From an uncultured Lachnospiraceae bacterium (GTDB taxonomy: Bacteria > Bacillota > Clostridia > Lachnospirales > Lachnospiraceae): 44,401 nucleotides of DNA. Position 1 is the first letter of the stretch. Each line of letters opens with the position of its first letter. Shown piece after piece: positions 14,693 to 36,897 of the stretch. Under the pieces are notes generated by a model. It had not been told where the DNA came from. It worked only from the letters and a program-made list of their open reading frames with translations, and ran no database searches. The stretch covers positions 1-44,401 of the forward strand of contig CANOCU010000029.1 in assembly GCA_947564645.1 (NCBI GenBank). The letters run 5' to 3'. The position numbers were made by a program, and so were the translations under genes.

Positions 14693-16279
14693 ATGGATAA
14701 AGCAATGCGGAAGGTGAAGCAATTAGAAGGATGGCTGGGGGAGCGTGTGGACAGACTTCCCATGAAAAGGCTTACGCTGTATGCGGGGCTGCTTTTACTG
14801 GTGTCCCTGGTTCCGCTGTTATGGCTGGGCAGATATAATGTGATGTGCATCGATGATTATAATTACGGCGTGTCCGTGCATGATGCATGGATGGCTACAG
14901 GCTCCGTCACAGAAGCATTAAAGGCGGCCTGGGCGCAGAACATGGATAATTATCAGAACTGGCAGGGAACTTATATTTCCTGCTTTCTGATGTCCTTATG
15001 CCCTATGAACTTCCGGTATGACGTGGCCTGGATCGTGCCGTTTATCATGATCGGTATGTTCGCATCCTCCACTTTTGTATTGGGAAAGCATATCCTGCAT
15101 AAGTGGCTGGGGGCAGACCAGGTGAGCAGCGCTTTTGTCATGCTTGTACTATTATTTTTGTTTTATCAGGTGTTGGAGGCTCCTTTTGAAGGGATCTACT
15201 GGTATAACGGGGCTACGCACTACGTACTGATGCAGTCTGTCTGGTTCTTCGGACTGGCGGCGGTTTCGGCGGCGCTCTGGGCACAGAAGAGATCCAGAGA
15301 GGCGTTTCTTTGCGGTATTGCAGTGGTTCTGTCAGTTATTGTAGGCGGAGGCAATCTGGTGACGGCGCTGCAGGCGGAGATCATGATGGCGCTTTTAGTG
15401 TTCTATGCGGCCGTAGTCAACCGAAAGAAACTTGCGGTGACGGTCATTCCTTTTATCACGGGCAGCATCGGCTTCCTGTTCAATACGTTGGCGCCGGGGA
15501 ATGCGCAGAGGGGCAGCCTGGATATGGATGAGGGATATTCTGCGGTGACGGCGATCCTGTTGTCTTTCTACAACGCGGCAGTGTTTATCATCCGCTGGAC
15601 CACGCCTTTCGTAATCCTGGTCTGGGTGCTGCTGCTGCCGGTACTGTGGAGGATCGTCAAGAGATCGGACCGGAAGTTCAGGCATCCCGTATGGGTGACG
15701 GCGGGGACGATCTGCCTTTTGTCGGCCATGTTTACGCCTACGCTGTATGCCATCGGCATGGTGGGACTGTCGAGAGTGGACAATATCATCCAGATGGTAT
15801 ATTATTTGGGCCTGTTCCTGGTGACGGCTTACTGGCTGGGGTATTTTGCACATAAAAGGGATGAGGAGGAAGCCTTCGCGGCAGAAAACGGTTCCCAGGG
15901 CCGGGCAGCAGATGCCGGACGGCTGTCTGCAGGAGAGATTTTCGGGTTATTTCTGGAAAAGACGGGCAACAGGCTGACGGCGGTCTGCTTCCTGTTCCTT
16001 ATGGTGATGTGGGTGTGTACCGCGGATAAGAATACGTATACCAGTGTGTCTGCCCTGCGGTCGCTTGTCAACGGAGAAGCCGGGACTTTCTATCAGGAAG
16101 CTATGGAGCGGCATGAGATCTATATTGATGAAACGATCGTGGACGTGGAGATTAAGCCTTATTCGGCCCGCCCGGCGCTTTTTGATTTCGATGATCTTAC
16201 GGAGGAGGCCGGAAACTGGCTGAATCTGGCGGTATCACAGTATTATCATAAGGCGTATGTGAGGATTGTGGAAGAATGA
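14693..16279 (+). CDS. polytopic membrane protein, possible GT-C-type transferase (DUF6056-like)
   Basis: A 528-residue protein with about ten or more hydrophobic helices, the first at residues 27-45. Immediately after it comes the outer-loop motif MCIDDYNYGVSVHDAW. An acidic pair plus Tyr in the first external loop is the position of the catalytic acid in GT-C enzymes. I associate this pattern with the DUF6056-type proteins of polysaccharide loci; the identification is by eye. A soluble tail of roughly 80 residues follows the last helix. The ribosome binding site AAGGAG (14676-14681) is 11 bases from this ATG but 4 bases from an ATG at 14686 that opens a four-codon frame ending inside this start. 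Function unproven. Confidence 0.6.
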   Translation: MDKAMRKVKQLEGWLGERVDRLPMKRLTLYAGLLLLVSLVPLLWLGRYNVMCIDDYNYGVSVHDAWMATGSVTEALKAAWAQNMDNYQNWQGTYISCFLMSLCPMNFRYDVAWIVPFIMIGMFASSTFVLGKHILHKWLGADQVSSAFVMLVLLFLFYQVLEAPFEGIYWYNGATHYVLMQSVWFFGLAAVSAALWAQKRSREAFLCGIAVVLSVIVGGGNLVTALQAEIMMALLVFYAAVVNRKKLAVTVIPFITGSIGFLFNTLAPGNAQRGSLDMDEGYSAVTAILLSFYNAAVFIIRWTTPFVILVWVLLLPVLWRIVKRSDRKFRHPVWVTAGTICLLSAMFTPTLYAIGMVGLSRVDNIIQMVYYLGLFLVTAYWLGYFAHKRDEEEAFAAENGSQGRAADAGRLSAGEIFGLFLEKTGNRLTAVCFLFLMVMWVCTADKNTYTSVSALRSLVNGEAGTFYQEAMERHEIYIDETIVDVEIKPYSARPALFDFDDLTEEAGNWLNLAVSQYYHKAYVRIVEE

Positions 16280-22333: not shown

Positions 22334-22751
22334 GGTCAAATGCTGCAACAACTCCCATATCCCATAGACGGATGCGATTGTGGAACTTTGCAGGGACGAA
22401 TCTTCTGGAGTTATCTGTGCTTTTCTGATTACAAAACATTTTGATGATTTTGGCGCTATGGCGCATGATACGAAAGTGCCAATTATGAAGATACCGGTTA
22501 TTGCTTTTTTATATTTACTTGGTAAGGTGGAGGCTGAGGGACAGAACGGGAAAATATAGACTATAATATTTATTGCAAAGTAGATGCATTTTCGTCTAAA
22601 AGATCAATTAACGTAACAATGAAGCTGAAGGGTGAATTGTTACCAATTAACCTGACTATGTGGAAAGTTGAATTGACATCAATATTGATACAAGCTATAA
22701 TTATTCGAAAGTAATTTTGGTTTTTAATAGGTGACGGGGGTATTAATTAAT
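22334..22751. other. 418-bp gap: decayed sequence, then the island promoter
   Basis: The first 230 bases have coding-like composition without an intact gene: an open stretch 22369-22560 has no usable start and no family I know. It may be eroded sequence downstream of the ATPase fragment. The last 100 bases are AT-rich and hold the consensus promoter at 22673-22701. Confidence 0.55.
22673..22701 (+). promoter_or_regulatory. consensus sigma-A promoter with a palindrome in its spacer
   Basis: TTGACA (22673-22678) and TATAAT (22696-22701) match both consensus boxes exactly with the ideal 17-base spacing. A perfect 12-bp palindrome ATCAATATTGAT (22678-22689) lies between them and could be an operator. 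It should start transcription near 22708, about 44 bases before the methyltransferase ATG, and serve the five-gene AT-rich island. Confidence 0.85.
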
Positions 22752-23633
22752 ATGCGATGTAAATTGTGTGGAAATGATATGCGATGTATTATGAAGCATG
22801 GACATGATTATTTTGTAGGGGAAGATAAAGAAACAGTATTTTCGATTTATTATTGTAATAACTGTAAAATAGGATACACATATCCACCAATGGATGATGA
22901 GACTTTGAGCCGATATTATCCTCCGGGGTTTGAAGCTTATGTTTCTAAGCACGGATTGTTAAATACACTGCAGATTTATAAATATAGATCGGATATGCGG
23001 ATCATTCAGAAGTATATGCGAAAAATACCGGCAAAAGTATATGAAATAGGGGCGGGGCGGGGGCAGTTTATAGCGACACTAAAGTCATATTGGAAGAATG
23101 TAGAATTTCTACAGGGAAGTGAACAATCAGAAGCGGGGGTTGAAAACGCACGAAAAGAGCATGGTATTGACCTGGAGTGTAAAAGGGCCGATGATATAGT
23201 TTTTTCACAGAGATATAATCTTATAGTTTTGCGGCATGTTTTAGAACATCTGAATAATTTTGATGCAGTTATCAGGAATATCTATGAGAATGGATTGGAA
23301 GATGGAGGAGTATTGTTCCTTAAAGTTCCTAAGCTGAATAGCTATGAGACTAAGAAATTTGGGAAGTTTTCTCATGATCTTGACCTGCCAAGGCATAGGG
23401 TACACTTTACAGATGTAGGTATGAGAAGGATCTTGGAATCAAGTGGTTTTAAGAATATCAAAATATATAATGAAATAGTTCCGGCATCCTATGATAGAAG
23501 TATGCAATACAAAAAAATGGGCAGAGAGTATTTGCCAAACAAAGGGAAAATTTTTCGGTATATATGGATTGAAGCAGCTTTGCTCAGACATAGAAAGAAT
23601 GCAGGAAGAATGATTGTTATTGCGGAGAAATAG
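22752..23633 (+). CDS. class I SAM-dependent methyltransferase with N-terminal zinc ribbon
   Basis: A 293-residue protein. The N-terminus has two Cys pairs (C3-x2-C6 and C35-x2-C38), a zinc ribbon found in sugar C- and O-methyltransferases. The Rossmann domain has the glycine-rich SAM motif YEIGAGRGQF (97-106), LIVLRHVLEHL and a later GGVLFLKVPK strand. The target is presumably a sugar or nucleotide sugar of the neighbouring glycan. The ATG at 22752 starts the first Cys pair; a GTG at 22731 would add seven residues but lacks a ribosome binding site. It is the first gene of the AT-rich island behind the consensus promoter. Confidence 0.85.
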   Translation: MRCKLCGNDMRCIMKHGHDYFVGEDKETVFSIYYCNNCKIGYTYPPMDDETLSRYYPPGFEAYVSKHGLLNTLQIYKYRSDMRIIQKYMRKIPAKVYEIGAGRGQFIATLKSYWKNVEFLQGSEQSEAGVENARKEHGIDLECKRADDIVFSQRYNLIVLRHVLEHLNNFDAVIRNIYENGLEDGGVLFLKVPKLNSYETKKFGKFSHDLDLPRHRVHFTDVGMRRILESSGFKNIKIYNEIVPASYDRSMQYKKMGREYLPNKGKIFRYIWIEAALLRHRKNAGRMIVIAEK

Positions 23634-23658: not shown

Positions 23659-25168
23659 ATGTATGGAAAGACAGATGTGTCGGATAGTAAGTGCTTTAAG
23701 AAGGTTAGCTTTATTCTGATCGGTGTTTATGCCTTGTTTTCATTGAGTTTTGTAATCCGTTTCGGGGGGGGGGTATTTTGCCCATGATGAGTTGTATCAT
23801 ATTTCTGCCGTAGACGAGCAGTTCTTTGCAGCGTCCCGTTATGAGCGTGCGCCTTATCTAAACTGGTTAATCAGATTTTCAACATCTATTTTCGGAAGAA
23901 ATTATTACATCTATAAATTAATCCCCTGTGTTTTTGGTTTCATAAGTGTTTCCATTTATTTATATTTAATATACCATTTAGCAGAACATGTATATAGTTT
24001 GATCTGCTTTACTTTTTTGATGTGCGCACATAGCCTGTTGATCGTTAATCACATGTATATTCGGATGTATGTGTGTGATGAAGTGGTCATTGCTGTCCTT
24101 GCATTGATTTTATATAAATTGGCGCATATTTCTTCGATAGTCATTCGTGTATTCTTACATTTCATTTATTTTACGATTGCTTTAATGCTGTACTTATTTC
24201 AGCCCACGGAGCAATCTTCGCTTGCTGTGTTAGGAACCGGTATTTTAGCATGGATGTTGAATTATCTTAGTATCAGGCTGATCCCTTATTTAAAAAAGAG
24301 AAAATTCCTTATCCCAGGATTAGTCTTGTGTAGCATTTGCCTGGTCAGCATTACAATATGCTTTATCTTAATTCGCGCAGGTATAGCTCCCTGCCCTCAT
24401 TTTTTATCAAAATTGATTATTAATAAACACGGAACAGGTTTACTGCAGCCTGTGTTTATAGGGTATTTTTTGACAAAAGGAATTTTTCTTACAATTGGTA
24501 TGATCGGTTTTGGGTATTTGCTGCTTACAAGGGAAATATCAGATAATTTGCCTGGAATTTATTTGTTGGGCTTTGTACCTTTTCTTGCGTATCTTATGCT
24601 TTATTTTGATCAGCGACTTTTCCGTTCTTTTACTGCCTTTTTGCCAATTATGATATTTTCCATGATATTGTGGCTTGATCATTTTTCTGTTTCAGGCAGG
24701 TCTATAGGGTGGATGATAATGATCACTGTGTTGACTGCACTTTTTTCTTATCCCAGAATTACTATGCACATTAAAGAATTTTATACTTTGCCATATGTTG
24801 TTGGAGAGGTTTTCTTTGATGACTATGGAGGCTTGATAGCGCAAGCTTCACAGGAAATTAGCAATGGCAGAAAGTGTTTCTGTATATGGGTCAACGAACA
24901 CGCCAAAGCAGCGTTTGGAGAGCTGAATTGGGATAGAGCTATGTGCTTGGAAGATGATATCAATAATAGTTATGGGTATACCGAGCAGGAATTTTTTGAG
25001 CTCCTGGACTATTTTGAAACTATTAATGATCCATATATTCTTGTTGTTGGGGCAGATTGTGCGAGAAAAATAGATTCTTGGATCACGCCTGAATTTATGG
25101 ATACTCTTCGAAACGATTACCTGTACATAGAATATCAGCAAGACGCATACTTGTTTTACATTAATTAG
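23659..25168 (+). pseudogene. GT-C (PMT/ArnT-like) glycosyltransferase, out of frame at a G10 run
   Basis: From ATG 23659 (GGGAGAA ribosome binding site 8 bases upstream) the frame encodes a start and a first membrane helix (FILIGVYALFSLSFVI). It then reaches ten consecutive G (23764-23773) and stops at a TGA (23785-23787) after 42 residues. With nine G the same start would run to 25168, giving a 502-residue protein. The first external loop would then contain FAHDELYH, the acidic catalytic motif expected for GT-C enzymes, followed by about ten helices and a soluble tail. The intact downstream frame with conserved motifs suggests an ON/OFF repeat switch rather than old decay. A sequencing error in the homopolymer is the other explanation. 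It is paired with the GtrB-like gene behind it. Confidence 0.75.
23764..23773 (+). repeat. ten-base poly-G tract inside a glycosyltransferase gene
   Basis: Ten G in a row within an AT-rich gene, exactly between the first membrane helix and the catalytic loop. The count of ten puts the gene out of frame; nine or twelve would put it in frame. Confidence 0.95.
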
Positions 25169-25224: not shown

Positions 25225-26214
25225 ATGACAAACGAAGTGAAAAAGAGTGATAAAAAACAGATAGGGGTTTCCGTGGTAGTTCCTGTATATAATGAAGAAG
25301 GGAATGTAGAGAAACTTCACAGAGAAATTAAAGAGGTCTGTGAAAAGGCAAAATATGATTATGAGATTATTTTTATAAATGACGGTTCTTCTGATAAAAC
25401 AGATGAAATCTGCAGGACATTGTCTCCTCTTAAATACATACAGTTTCGTAAAAATTTTGGACAGACTGCTGCTATGGATGCCGGGATTAAAAACAGTACA
25501 AAGGAATTTATTGTGACATTGGATGGTGATGGACAAAACGATCCGGCTGATATTCCAAAGATGTTGGACTATCTATTCAGCAATCGATTGGATGTTGTTT
25601 CTGGTTGGCGCAAAAACAGGAAAGATACCTTTATGAAGCGTTTTATCTCCAGAGGGGCAAATGCTCTGAGACATCTTCTGGTTCATGATGGAATTCATGA
25701 TAGCGGATGTTCTCTAAAGATATATTATCGACAGTGTTTTCAGGGAATTAATCTGTATGGCGAACAGCATCGCTTTATTCCGGCGATTCTTAAAATGAAG
25801 GGGTATAAAGTTGGTGAAATTGTAGTTAATCATAGAGAAAGGACTTCCGGGCGAACAAAGTATAATTGGCACAGAACGATTAAAGGGTTTGTAGATATGA
25901 TATCGGTCTGGTTTTGGAATAAGTATGCAGCAAGACCACTCCATGTGATGGGCGGCATTGGAATAATGTTCCTGGGATTAGGTGGAATATGCGGAGTCTG
26001 GTCTATAGCATTGTGGGTGATGGGAAGAAAGATGTCCAATAATTTTTTCCCACCACTCATGACTGTTTTTTTTGTGGTGATCGGTTTGTTGCTTTTTGTA
26101 TTTGGATTAATGAGTGAGATATTGATAAAGACGTATTATGGTGTGCATGTAGACAGTCCCTACAGTATTAAGGAGATATGTGTTCAGAATGCAGATGAGA
26201 ACGCTATTCTATAG
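25225..26214 (+). CDS. GtrB/DPMS-type polyprenyl-phosphate glycosyltransferase
   Basis: A 329-residue protein with a GT2 catalytic domain (VSVVVPVYNEEGN, INDGSSDKT with D53, TLDGDGQNDP at 99-107) and two C-terminal membrane helices. This is the shape of GtrB/ArnC/YkcC enzymes that charge undecaprenyl phosphate with a single sugar from a nucleotide donor. The product is the donor for GT-C enzymes on the outer face, so the broken-or-switched GT-C gene just upstream is its natural partner. A GAAAGGTGAC ribosome binding site precedes the ATG. Confidence 0.88.
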   Translation: MTNEVKKSDKKQIGVSVVVPVYNEEGNVEKLHREIKEVCEKAKYDYEIIFINDGSSDKTDEICRTLSPLKYIQFRKNFGQTAAMDAGIKNSTKEFIVTLDGDGQNDPADIPKMLDYLFSNRLDVVSGWRKNRKDTFMKRFISRGANALRHLLVHDGIHDSGCSLKIYYRQCFQGINLYGEQHRFIPAILKMKGYKVGEIVVNHRERTSGRTKYNWHRTIKGFVDMISVWFWNKYAARPLHVMGGIGIMFLGLGGICGVWSIALWVMGRKMSNNFFPPLMTVFFVVIGLLLFVFGLMSEILIKTYYGVHVDSPYSIKEICVQNADENAIL

Positions 26215-26275: not shown

Positions 26276-27451
26276 ATGAAAATAATTATGATAGCTCCCA
26301 CACCTTTTTTTGCAGACCGTGGATGTCATACAAGAATTTATGGACAAATAAGCGCATTACAAAGACGGGGTTATAAAATAAAACTGGTTACCTATGGCAT
26401 TGGACGTGAGATAGAACAAATTGAAACGATTCGTTGCTTTAATTTTCCATGGTATAAGAAATTGTCTGCTGGTCCCTCTGTTTGGAAAATATTCCTTCTT
26501 CCGTTTATTGCGCTTAAAGCATGGAAAACAATTAAACTTAATAATCCGGATATTGTATATGCTTATTTGCATGAAGGCGCTTGCGTTGCAAAGTTCTGCA
26601 GTTTTTTTTATAAAGATCCTTTGTATGTGTTTGATTGTCAGGGTTCATTGAGCGGAGAGCTCATTCAACATAAGTTTGTAAAAGAAGGAGGGATTTTCTA
26701 TAAGATTTTCTTGTGGATCGAAAAAAAGATAGATTGTTGGTTTCCGGTCGTAACACAATCGGAGAATTTGTATACGCAGTTACAGGAGATGGGAGTTCCG
26801 AAAGAGAGAATGATAAATGCGTTAGATGCGGTTGATACAAGATTGTTTTCTCCGAGAAAACCGGATCAGGAGTTGGTCAGGAAATATCAGATTGATTTGT
26901 CAAAACCACGGGTATTGTTTATGGGTTTGTTGGAAACATATCAGGGTGTAGATTTAATGTTTAAGTCCTTTCAATACGTTCATCAAAAGATACCAAGAGT
27001 TCAATTTATTATAATCGGTTATCCAAATATAGAAAAGTATAAGGAGCTGGCAAAGAAATTTGGCATATCAGAAAATACTATTTTCATGGGAAAGATTAAA
27101 TTTGAAGAAACGCCACGCTATCTGTCACTGGCGTCTATTGCAGTCGCTCCCAAAATAGCAACAGCTGAGGGGGATGGCAAGGTCTATAATTACATGGCAA
27201 TGAAAATGGGAGTTATTTGCTTTGATAGGGAAATTTCTCGGGAGATTCTGGGGGATACAGGTTTATTTGCCAAATTCAAGAATGCCGAGGACATGGCAGA
27301 TAAGATCATCATGCTCATAAATGATCATAATTTGACAAAACATCTGGGGAGCAAAGCAAGAATGAGGGCGAAGCAAGTATTATCAACGGATTTAAATGCT
27401 GAGAAAATTGATGGATTTTTTAAAACTCTTGCACCAGAAAAGTATAGGTAA
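26276..27451 (+). CDS. GT4-family glycosyltransferase
   Basis: A 391-residue GT-B enzyme: MKIIMIAPTPFFADRGCHTRIYGQ at the N-terminus, and a C-terminal donor domain with VLFMGLLETYQGVDLM and AEGDGKVYNYMAMKMGVICFD in the region where GT4 enzymes bind the nucleotide sugar. Codon choice and base composition are AT-rich like its island neighbours and unlike the GT4 genes of the flanks. An AAGGA sequence lies about 12 bases before the ATG. The next gene follows after a 4-base gap via a two-codon relay frame. Confidence 0.85.
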   Translation: MKIIMIAPTPFFADRGCHTRIYGQISALQRRGYKIKLVTYGIGREIEQIETIRCFNFPWYKKLSAGPSVWKIFLLPFIALKAWKTIKLNNPDIVYAYLHEGACVAKFCSFFYKDPLYVFDCQGSLSGELIQHKFVKEGGIFYKIFLWIEKKIDCWFPVVTQSENLYTQLQEMGVPKERMINALDAVDTRLFSPRKPDQELVRKYQIDLSKPRVLFMGLLETYQGVDLMFKSFQYVHQKIPRVQFIIIGYPNIEKYKELAKKFGISENTIFMGKIKFEETPRYLSLASIAVAPKIATAEGDGKVYNYMAMKMGVICFDREISREILGDTGLFAKFKNAEDMADKIIMLINDHNLTKHLGSKARMRAKQVLSTDLNAEKIDGFFKTLAPEKYR

Positions 27452-27455
27452 TGAA

Positions 27456-28751
27456 ATGATAAGAAAATGGGTCATACAAAGTAATTCATTGAAAAATGTA
27501 TCGTGGACCTTTATGGCCAAAATTGTTGCAATGTTATTTGCTGTTATGTTGGATATTTTACTGGCAAGACTATTGGGTATCGAAGCCTATGCGGAATGGA
27601 CATTTTTTTATACAACTGTAAGTATTATGTTTTATTTGGCATGGTTTGGAATCAATCAGTCGGTCAAAGTATTTGTATCCAAGCAGACAACTATACAAGA
27701 CAGGAATGTTTGTATTTGCTCCGGCTTAATCTTGAGAACAATTGTCAGTTTGATTTTTGCCACTATAATTATAGTATATTCTGAGAAGATTGCTGTGATA
27801 TTTGGATATCCGGAAAAGTATTCTCATCTATTATTTTTGTATAAATTTGCGGGCGCGCTTGTGATTTGTAGTTGCTTTACAGAGTTTTTTAAAGAACTAT
27901 GTATTGGACTTCAGAAGTATAAGAGCTTGTTCGGGATAACATTGACTGAATTTGGGACCAACTTTATTTTTGGATTAGCTGGCGCATACCTGTTGAAGAA
28001 TGTTATAGGAGTAGCGCTCGGGTATCTCATTTCCGGAATTATATTATTGATTGTTGGATTTTCTCAACTAAACAGTGTACAGTACCGGTCAAAAGATATG
28101 AAGAGCAATTTCCATAAAATGATGGGAAAAATATTTAAATATGCACTTCCACTGGCAGTTACTGGTATAAGTGGAATGATCTTGACAGAGATGGATATTT
28201 TTATGTTGGGCATAATTAGCACAAAACAACAGGTATCGATTTATTCTATTGCCAAACAGCTATGTTCTAAGACGGCACATCTTAATTATGCTCTGGCAAC
28301 AGGTACGTTAACTTCGTTTGCAGTCATAAATACTGCCAATAGAGAGAATAAGAAAACTGAACTGAAAAGGTTGAGTAATCTTAATTTGCTTATTACAGGG
28401 ATAGTAGTGATTGCATTTGTTGTAACAGGGCCATTCCTGATCAGGATTTTATACGGAGATGACTATAGGTTTGCAGGAAATGTCGTAATATGGTTAATGC
28501 CGTACTATATTTTGTATAGCATATCAACTTTTTTTTCCATTTTTCTAGATTTTCAGGGAAAAGCAGGTGTCCGCAGTATTTGCTATAGTTCTGTTTTAGT
28601 GATCAACTTTATTTTAAATTGGATATTGATCCCAAAGTATGGTGCTGTCGGAGCCTGCATAGCAACCGGGGTTTCACTAGTACCCTATGTACTGACAGTG
28701 GTATTTATTACTGTAAGGATCATGACAGGGAAAATGCAGGTTAATATTTGA
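27456..28751 (+). CDS. Wzx-type oligosaccharide flippase (MOP/PST family)
   Basis: A 431-residue protein with about 12 predicted helices and no ATPase domain. SLKNVSWTFMAKIVAMLFAVMLDILLARLLGIEAYAEW at the start and the late PFLIRILYGDDYRFAG segment fit the polysaccharide-transport family of the MOP superfamily. It should flip an undecaprenyl-linked unit outwards. I chose the ATG at 27456: an ATG at 27451 overlaps the previous stop and opens only ATG-AAA-TGA, whose stop overlaps this start. It is the last gene of the AT-rich island and the first of two Wzx genes in the window. Confidence 0.84.
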   Translation: MIRKWVIQSNSLKNVSWTFMAKIVAMLFAVMLDILLARLLGIEAYAEWTFFYTTVSIMFYLAWFGINQSVKVFVSKQTTIQDRNVCICSGLILRTIVSLIFATIIIVYSEKIAVIFGYPEKYSHLLFLYKFAGALVICSCFTEFFKELCIGLQKYKSLFGITLTEFGTNFIFGLAGAYLLKNVIGVALGYLISGIILLIVGFSQLNSVQYRSKDMKSNFHKMMGKIFKYALPLAVTGISGMILTEMDIFMLGIISTKQQVSIYSIAKQLCSKTAHLNYALATGTLTSFAVINTANRENKKTELKRLSNLNLLITGIVVIAFVVTGPFLIRILYGDDYRFAGNVVIWLMPYYILYSISTFFSIFLDFQGKAGVRSICYSSVLVINFILNWILIPKYGAVGACIATGVSLVPYVLTVVFITVRIMTGKMQVNI

Positions 28752-35361: not shown

Positions 35362-36897
35362 ATGGGAAGAGTAAGGCAGGCTGGAAAGAATATTTTCTTT
35401 GGCTATATCAGTAATTTTATAATTCTGGTCATGGGATTCATGCAGAGAACGGTATTCATTCTGGTTCTTGACAGGACTCTTCTGGGCGTCAACAGTCTGT
35501 ATACGGATATTTTAAGTATGCTCTCTTTGGCGGAGTTAGGGATCGGGAGCGCTTTAAATTACAGTCTGTATAAGCCGGTTGCTGTCGGAGATCAGGAAAA
35601 GATCAAGTCCTATATGAGACTTTACCGGAGAGCTTATCTGGCGATCGCAGGTGTGATCGCAGCTATTGGGCTGCTACTGACTCCCTTCCTGCCCTATTTG
35701 ATCAAGGATAGCGGAGGAATATCGGTTAAGGATCTGACAATCTATTATCTGATCTTTCTGTTCAATACCGTCAGCACGTATTTTGTCGCGTATAAATATA
35801 GTTTATCGAATGCGCAGCAGCGCAATTATATACAGACAAATATTGCTACGCTTACGAAGATTGCCACAGTCTTTGCACAGATCGTTATTTTGTTTCTGAC
35901 AGGAAATTTTCTCTTTTATTTACTGACACAGGCTGTAGTAGAGCTCGTGCAGAAGATTTTTGTTGGCATTTATTTTAACAGACTCTATCCTTATTTGCGC
36001 GACAAGGAAGTAAAAAAGTTAGAGAAAGCGGAAACAGATCTGGTTATTACCAAGACAAAGGCGTTGATGTTTCATAAGATAGGGGATGTGGCCAGGCTGT
36101 CAACGGACAGCATCATCATTACTTATTTTATGAATGTGGACTGGGTAGGGATCGTAGGAAATTATACAATGATCATTACTTATGCTGCAAATTTCATCAG
36201 TGTTATTTTCAATTCTGTTATTTCAGGATTTGGCAATCTGGTGGCTACGGAATCTCGGGATAAACAATTTGCCATGTTTAAAGTTTACCGGTTTTTTGCG
36301 TGTTGGCTGTATGGATTTGCGGCAGTGGGATTCTGGCTGCTTTTGACGCCGTTAGTAACGGGAATCTGGTTGAATGAGAGTTGGGAATTGGGACAGGCGG
36401 TGCTCACGTTGATCCTGATCGACCTGTATTTTAAAGGCGGTAGGGTTGTTCTGGTCAATTTCAAGATAGCGGCGGGTGTATTTGAGCAGGACAAATATCT
36501 TTCCCTGCTGCAGGGAATCGTAAATCTTGTGCTTTCGGTTATTGGTATTCAGTATATTGGCCTTGCAGGCGTTTATCTTGGAACGGTAGTGTCCGGTGTG
36601 ATGGCGAATCTGGTACAGCCGGTGATCGTCTATCGGGACTGCTTCGGGAGAAGCGCATGGAGCTATTTTAAGGATGCGGCGAAGTATATCGGCGTTATCG
36701 TTGGGGTTGTACTGGTCATGATCCCGGTGAGAAGTATTCTTCTTGCACAGGTTGACCTGGTGAGATTTGTGGGAATGATGTTGGTCGTTGCAGGGGTTTA
36801 TAATATGACGTTTTTTCTGTTTTTCAGGAAAACGGAGGAATTTGGGTATTTATGGACGCTTTTTCATGGCAGGTTAGGAAAACGGCGTAGAAGTTGA
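35362..36897 (+). CDS. Wzx-type oligosaccharide flippase (MOP/PST family)
   Basis: A 511-residue membrane protein with about 12-14 helices and no ATPase domain. It opens GKNIFFGYISNFIILVMGFMQRTVFILVLDRTLLGVNSLYTDILSMLSLAELGIGSALNYSLY, typical of the polysaccharide flippases in Firmicute capsule loci. It is longer than, and quite different from, the flippase at 27456-28751, so they probably serve different glycans. An AGAGG sequence lies upstream of the ATG. This is the likely exporter of the cluster starting at 28886. Confidence 0.85.
   Translation: MGRVRQAGKNIFFGYISNFIILVMGFMQRTVFILVLDRTLLGVNSLYTDILSMLSLAELGIGSALNYSLYKPVAVGDQEKIKSYMRLYRRAYLAIAGVIAAIGLLLTPFLPYLIKDSGGISVKDLTIYYLIFLFNTVSTYFVAYKYSLSNAQQRNYIQTNIATLTKIATVFAQIVILFLTGNFLFYLLTQAVVELVQKIFVGIYFNRLYPYLRDKEVKKLEKAETDLVITKTKALMFHKIGDVARLSTDSIIITYFMNVDWVGIVGNYTMIITYAANFISVIFNSVISGFGNLVATESRDKQFAMFKVYRFFACWLYGFAAVGFWLLLTPLVTGIWLNESWELGQAVLTLILIDLYFKGGRVVLVNFKIAAGVFEQDKYLSLLQGIVNLVLSVIGIQYIGLAGVYLGTVVSGVMANLVQPVIVYRDCFGRSAWSYFKDAAKYIGVIVGVVLVMIPVRSILLAQVDLVRFVGMMLVVAGVYNMTFFLFFRKTEEFGYLWTLFHGRLGKRRRS

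Follow-up and report, generated by a model that had tools for sequence, protein, structure and literature searches.

A poly-G tract in a GT-C-like glycosyltransferase gene as a candidate phase-variation switch in a Lachnospiraceae genus rich in long G runs

Analysis of a 44,401-nucleotide stretch of DNA from an uncultured Lachnospiraceae bacterium (referred to here as the window; it is the whole of contig C29 in a 4.15-Mb assembly of 140 contigs, genome G000) revealed ten consecutive Gs interrupting a gene for a putative GT-C-like glycosyltransferase. The nucleotide sequences are best explained if this G10 is a homopolymeric contingency locus subject to slipped-strand phase variation, a reading to which we give a probability of roughly 85%. 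The genome contains 22 runs of at least nine Gs, this tract included, and similar runs are abundant in most genomes of the genus. The features of the window locus are as follows.

22731..23633, + strand: methyltransferase gene directly 5' of the GT-C-like gene (Pfam PF13489).
23659..23787, + strand: 5' part of the GT-C-like gene as assembled, with start codon, first hydrophobic segment, tract and stop, 42 residues (ORF and hydropathy).
23764..23773, + strand: G10 tract, the proposed switch (direct reading; one of 22 runs of at least nine Gs in the genome).
23774..25168, + strand: remainder of the GT-C-like gene in another frame, 464 residues, starting YFAHDELYH (42% identity to an uninterrupted ORF of genome G019).
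25225..26214, + strand: GT2 partner related to polyprenyl-phosphate sugar synthases, GtrB/ArnC-like (Pfam PF00535; ArnC and PgfS models below cut-off).

The ORF with the ATG at 23659, which is preceded by GGGAG as a possible ribosome-binding site, comprises 35 codons before the tract and terminates at the TGA at 23785-23787, while the second frame starts directly 3' of the G10 and remains free of stops up to the stop codon at 25166-25168. The arithmetic of the original prediction, 42 residues with ten Gs and 502 with nine, is correct, and so is its view of the downstream part as intact rather than anciently decayed, the 464 codons being open and the sole interruption lying in the tract. The upstream piece carries a single strong hydrophobic segment (residues 15-33) followed by the tract, and the D of DELYH is the fifth residue past it, which agrees with the predicted position between the first membrane helix and the DELYH motif. 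Computation of the frames indicated that this position, inside the ORF and ahead of the acidic motif, is where a change of length would switch expression. The gene was likewise described correctly as AT-rich, since its G+C content without the tract is 36.0% as compared with 47.5% for the window. Base composition predicts 0.00013 runs of at least ten Gs in the gene and, counting both strands, 0.14 in the window, and the G10 is the sole run of G or C longer than six within the window.

Two other roles for this region were considered and rejected. As a promoter element the tract has a best -35 candidate matching at 4/6 positions, one of three control offsets also reaching 4, and the stretch preceding it encodes a hydrophobic segment where the homologue predicts one. 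An internal start at the TTG at 23792 would bypass the tract, but on inspection it would lose the first segment as well as the D and E, both of which the homologue shares.

The GT-C label is an assignment by architecture, suggested by hydropathy, the DE motif and the neighbouring GT2. One hydrophobic segment precedes the tract and eight follow it at the threshold used, and the acidic DE, invariant with the homologue, stands right behind the first segment. The downstream piece gave zero matches to Pfam or NCBIfam models, a profile search of solved structures (PDB) returned spurious short matches only, and the predicted structure had a pLDDT of 45. The original identification of a GT-C glycosyltransferase therefore holds for the architecture and the adjoining GT2, but no Pfam or NCBIfam model confirms it. 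Its GtrB-like partner gene was recovered next to the tract gene, with a match to PF00535 and matches below the cut-offs to the ArnC and PgfS models.

The surrounding window is a large polysaccharide locus with many GT1 and GT2 glycosyltransferases, a Wzx-like flippase at 27396-28751 and a second, weak one at 35362-36897. It also codes for a bacterial sugar transferase, a WecG/TagA-type transferase, a pyruvyl transferase, an MBOAT acyltransferase and asparagine-synthase-like genes. A 528-residue protein at 14693-16279 of the same locus belongs to Pfam DUF6056, a family of unknown function. In gtrABC modules for O-antigen modification, which confer phase-variable decoration, a GtrB-like donor synthase lies beside a large membrane glycosyltransferase, and the window resembles them in that a GtrB-like polyprenyl-phosphate sugar synthase adjoins the transferase. 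The accessible part of a review describes Salmonella glycosyltransferase operons as switched by Dam/OxyR, unlike the tract-based arrangement proposed here. Because GtrA was not found among the Pfam matches of the window proteins scanned, the cluster was not filed as a gtr module.

The only close homologue found in the genus is an uninterrupted ORF of 532 residues in genome G019, with 42% identity. At the matching place it reads NGLYDFDEMYH without a long G run, and its C-terminal tail AYLFYIN is the same as that of the window gene. A GT2 adjoins it in the opposite orientation, and the GT2 that follows the window gene is 77% identical to this neighbour. Matches to the window gene were obtained in three of 77 genus genomes (G000, G019 and G014, the last weak and partial), and a sample of 397 family genomes, in which G019 was apparently not included, gave G000 and one weak match, G087. 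A scan of a collection of genome contigs yielded no further homologues.

Analysis of both strands of the G000 genome showed 22 runs of at least nine Gs (15 of nine, five of ten and two of eleven) among 31 runs of at least seven, only nine having lengths of seven or eight. Extrapolation from an order-5 model, with five bases of context, predicts 0.01 runs of at least nine. Simpler composition models expect 5.4 (order 3) or 34 (order 1), so that the excess depends on taking local context into account and on how few runs have lengths of six to eight. In 20 background stretches totalling 397 kb we counted 300 G/C runs of at least five, nine of at least six and one of at least seven; these stretches were picked away from known tracts and hence contain no runs of nine or more by design. 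With six to eight scarce and nine or more abundant, the distribution of lengths has two humps, as would be expected of contingency tracts.

The dinucleotide TA directly follows the tract in 17 of the 22 G000 runs (L001 and L004-L024), coding tracts included, and it follows 6% and 4% of background G4 and G5 runs, respectively. This preference is not accounted for by slippage alone. Interpretation of the TA as part of a -10 box was dropped, since coding tracts show it too; a full TTGACA at a plausible distance was found for L010 only. Loss of mismatch repair was rejected as the cause of the long tracts: in a search confined to mutS1, the gene scored above cut-off in 139 of 145 genomes, G000 among them, so that the tracts exist beside a mismatch-repair gene.

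ORF analysis combined with Pfam assigned 15 of the 22 G000 tracts to coding frames, either inside them or at their end (the coding strand has G in ten and C in five), and the other seven to sites outside such frames. Genes for AraC-type regulators, response regulators or histidine kinases host or adjoin L004, L005, L006, L015, L017, L018, L019, L021 and L023; L005 was assigned to the AraC gene, the opposite ORF at that site having no family above cut-off. The other hosts or direct neighbours include an ArsR/MarR-like regulator (L014), a Cro/C1-like regulator (L011), a solute-binding lipoprotein (L009), an ABC ATPase (L024) and a methyltransferase (L020), and L010 is a promoter tract ahead of a 4-alpha-glucanotransferase gene. 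Regulator families thus occupy nine of 22 tract loci as compared with at most six of 100 random ORFs (Fisher p approximately 0.0001), where six per hundred is an upper bound for the background and the nine were sorted after the fact. The tract lies within the last few codons in L005, L006, L018 and L019. A gap of 3 to 10 bases separates it from the following start codon in L004, L011, L013, L014 and L024, a position from which it can affect ribosome binding. At L007 an ORF is split and is closed by the tract, and L016 is situated near a contig end. L008 (1812-2886 of G000 C4), with a G10 in a permease-like start, was withdrawn as a clean closed locus because that start is fused to a part resembling a solute-binding protein, either as a fusion remnant or as an assembly join.

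In the 77 genomes of the genus, including G000, runs of at least nine Gs totalled 1490 and runs of exactly seven 516, while the corresponding totals for 68 other genomes of the family and order were 382 and 1660. Runs of at least nine outnumbered those of exactly seven in 60 of the 77 genus genomes versus seven of the 68 others. Ten or more runs of at least nine were present in 50 genus genomes and in nine of the others; four genus genomes had none and the maximum was 87. Outside the genus, G106, from another family of the order, has 95 runs of at least nine, exceeding its runs of exactly seven, and G093, G115, G127 and G137, from one further family, have 19 to 45, fewer than of exactly seven. 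The G runs listed for G019 and G066 are one-stranded within many contigs, which perhaps tracks gene or replication direction. Four tandem paralogous units about 526 bases apart in G005 C1 (L029, L035, L041 and L047) each carry an equal-length G9TATCATCG.

Tracts in promoter spacers were sought with the pattern TTGACA, 4-12 bases, eight Gs, 0-5 bases and TANNNT. The 145 genomes gave 94 rows as compared with three for the reversed control; the 94 rows correspond to 83 distinct places, 11 being overlapping variants, and the pattern was present in 34 of 77 genus genomes versus eight of 68 others. For scoring of the boxes 72 of the 83 places were taken, of which 69 were fitted and three skipped; in most of the 11 unscored places additional bases separate the run from the box, another is a duplicate, and one, in G065 C36, fits. 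The fourth and fifth letters of the -10 box, both left free in the pattern, were A in 57 and 55 of the 69 scored places, respectively, and spacers ranged from 12 to 20 bases, the commonest being 19 (33 of 69). In an even sample of the phylum the pattern occurred in ten of 398 genomes, including G000, and the control in none. A stricter form gave at least 119 stretches in a collection of species genomes, in a scan run without a control pattern; among the matches listed are many gut and rumen Clostridia and Bacilli, and also Helicobacter, Streptobacillus, Treponema, Saccharibacteria, Streptococcus, Chloroflexi and others. The window tract itself falls outside this class.

Comparison of orthologous promoter sites revealed differences of length between species in two of the four groups compared, none of which is the window locus. 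One site has nine Gs in G057 and ten in G027 (flanks 91% and 90% identical), and another has eleven in G022 and ten in G018 (flanks 93% and 95% identical). The other two groups, G043/G045/G073 and G066/G012, were equal in length.

A situation similar to that of the window gene was observed in the sister species G060, where 33 tracts were looked at. One of them (L250, enlarged as L254) carries a G11 at codon 13 of an ORF starting MKNRRKTIEIFV.

L254 6632-8127 (G060 C95): GT-C-like gene of G060 with the G11 tract (ORF reading).

A WADE motif follows about 20 residues past the G11, and the 494-residue frame after the tract joins the start only if the tract consists of whole codons, so that in the assembly this gene is closed. 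No significant similarity links it to the window gene, and Pfam gave nothing beyond a match below threshold to an O-mannosyltransferase-like family. Its neighbours are a methyltransferase upstream and Hsp33 downstream, with no GT2 there. Two unrelated membrane glycosyltransferase-like genes therefore carry a closed tract between start and acidic motif, which points to selection for switchability. Five other G060 tracts (L025, L031, L049, L238 and L248) show TTGAC(A/G), a spacer of 18-19 containing the G run, and TAGAAT or TAGACT. By eye, L025, L031, L043 and L049 precede genes with secreted-looking N-termini, and the G10 of L249 lies upstream of a flagellin-like ORF.

Three explanations of the G10 other than slipped-strand switching were weighed. 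Homopolymers are error-prone and the assembly is in 140 contigs, so that the tenth G might be a sequencing or assembly error and the gene intact with a tract of another fixed length, as the 464 open codons, incompatible with a decayed gene, would also allow. The original prediction had named this alternative, and the part of it that stands is that the exact count of ten may be wrong; the tract itself is left unexplained, for a miscount cannot create a long G run in a gene of 36% G+C, a real run of at least nine would be prone to slip all the same, and the excess at promoter and start-codon sites across the genome and the genus would go without a cause. We regard an error as improbable. Still less probable is a dying gene that lost its function through a fixed frameshift mutation, of which the G run is the scar. 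The gene is indeed closed as assembled and rare in the genus, and another tract locus of G000, L008, is a fused remnant, but the window gene has a single interruption, located in the tract and followed by a long open frame, its coding score equals that of its upstream neighbour, and its tail is identical to that of the homologue.

Homopolymer runs can also be slippery for RNA polymerase and ribosomes, and full-length protein might be made from the closed gene by programmed slippage during transcription, or by ribosomal frameshifting, at the G run. Such a process could coexist with slippage of the DNA; as a replacement for it we consider it very unlikely, since it gives no account of the promoter-spacer tracts or of the differences in promoter tract length between species.

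The slipped-strand on/off switch of the original prediction is supported by the 22 long runs with few of seven or eight in G000, by the enrichment in most of the genus, by placement at sites relevant to switching, by the length differences in two of four promoter groups, by the uninterrupted G019 homologue with its related GT2 and by the parallel in G060. Points against it are the rarity of the gene, whose homologue carries no tract, the equal lengths in the other two promoter groups, the higher run counts expected by simpler models, and the TA preference. Under this explanation DNA polymerase would slip on the G run, adding or removing one G; one tract-length class in three would join the first membrane segment to the remainder of the GT-C-like enzyme, and the other two would end translation shortly past the tract. 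The enzyme would then add a sugar, supplied via the neighbouring GT2, to a surface polysaccharide, and a clonal population would be a mix of cells with and without that sugar. Switching within the population, the activity of the enzyme, and its sugar and acceptor are what we infer.

The window gene would be one of about twenty such loci in G000, and switches of this type may be widespread in the genus, within coding frames as well as in promoter spacers and shortly before start codons. It appears reasonably probable that the genus has a multi-locus poly-G phasome, with often at least ten and up to 87 hypermutable runs per genome that are set apart from the depleted lengths six to eight. These would switch surface-glycan enzymes, secreted proteins and, unusually, AraC and two-component regulators together with sugar-use transport genes, by four routes: the coding frame, the C-terminal tail, the pre-start region and the promoter spacer.

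Poly-G and poly-C contingency loci are well known in Campylobacter, Helicobacter and Neisseria, with tens of tracts of about nine or more per genome, located in surface-glycan genes and promoters and including C-terminal switching (named in the title of PMC2823697). The tracts described here are alike in number per genome, in length and in their occurrence in surface-glycan genes and promoters. They differ in belonging to another phylum and a gut-commensal family, in the presence of mutS1, and in lying at many AraC/two-component regulators and sugar-use genes. Nearer in habitat are the sortase-dependent pili of Bifidobacterium breve UCC2003, for which a poly-G slippage switch was demonstrated by Maximum Depth Sequencing, according to the portion of the report available (PMC9187656). 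By analogy with those pilus tracts, replication slippage would be the simplest mechanism here. Both cases concern an intragenic G tract in a Gram-positive gut commensal, and in B. breve its length decides a surface structure. As far as that portion goes, B. breve, one of the Actinobacteria, has one or two pilus clusters per genome, whereas about twenty loci per genome occur in this Lachnospiraceae bacterium. Promoter-spacer and start-codon tracts and a glycosyltransferase target likewise set the present case apart, and slippage is here predicted from the sequence.

A search of the literature, mostly outside subscription sources, found no report of phase variation by poly-G or homopolymer slippage in Lachnospiraceae; the sole match combining family name and mechanism (PMC6437147) deals, in its accessible part, with Campylobacter and AB5 toxins. 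This kind of switch is already known, best from pathogens. Since 50 of 77 species genomes of one gut-commensal genus carry at least ten G runs of length nine and above, public reads and cultured strains offer a way to test whether such switching takes place. If the proposal is true, single consensus genomes of these bacteria would misreport which glycan and regulatory genes are active.
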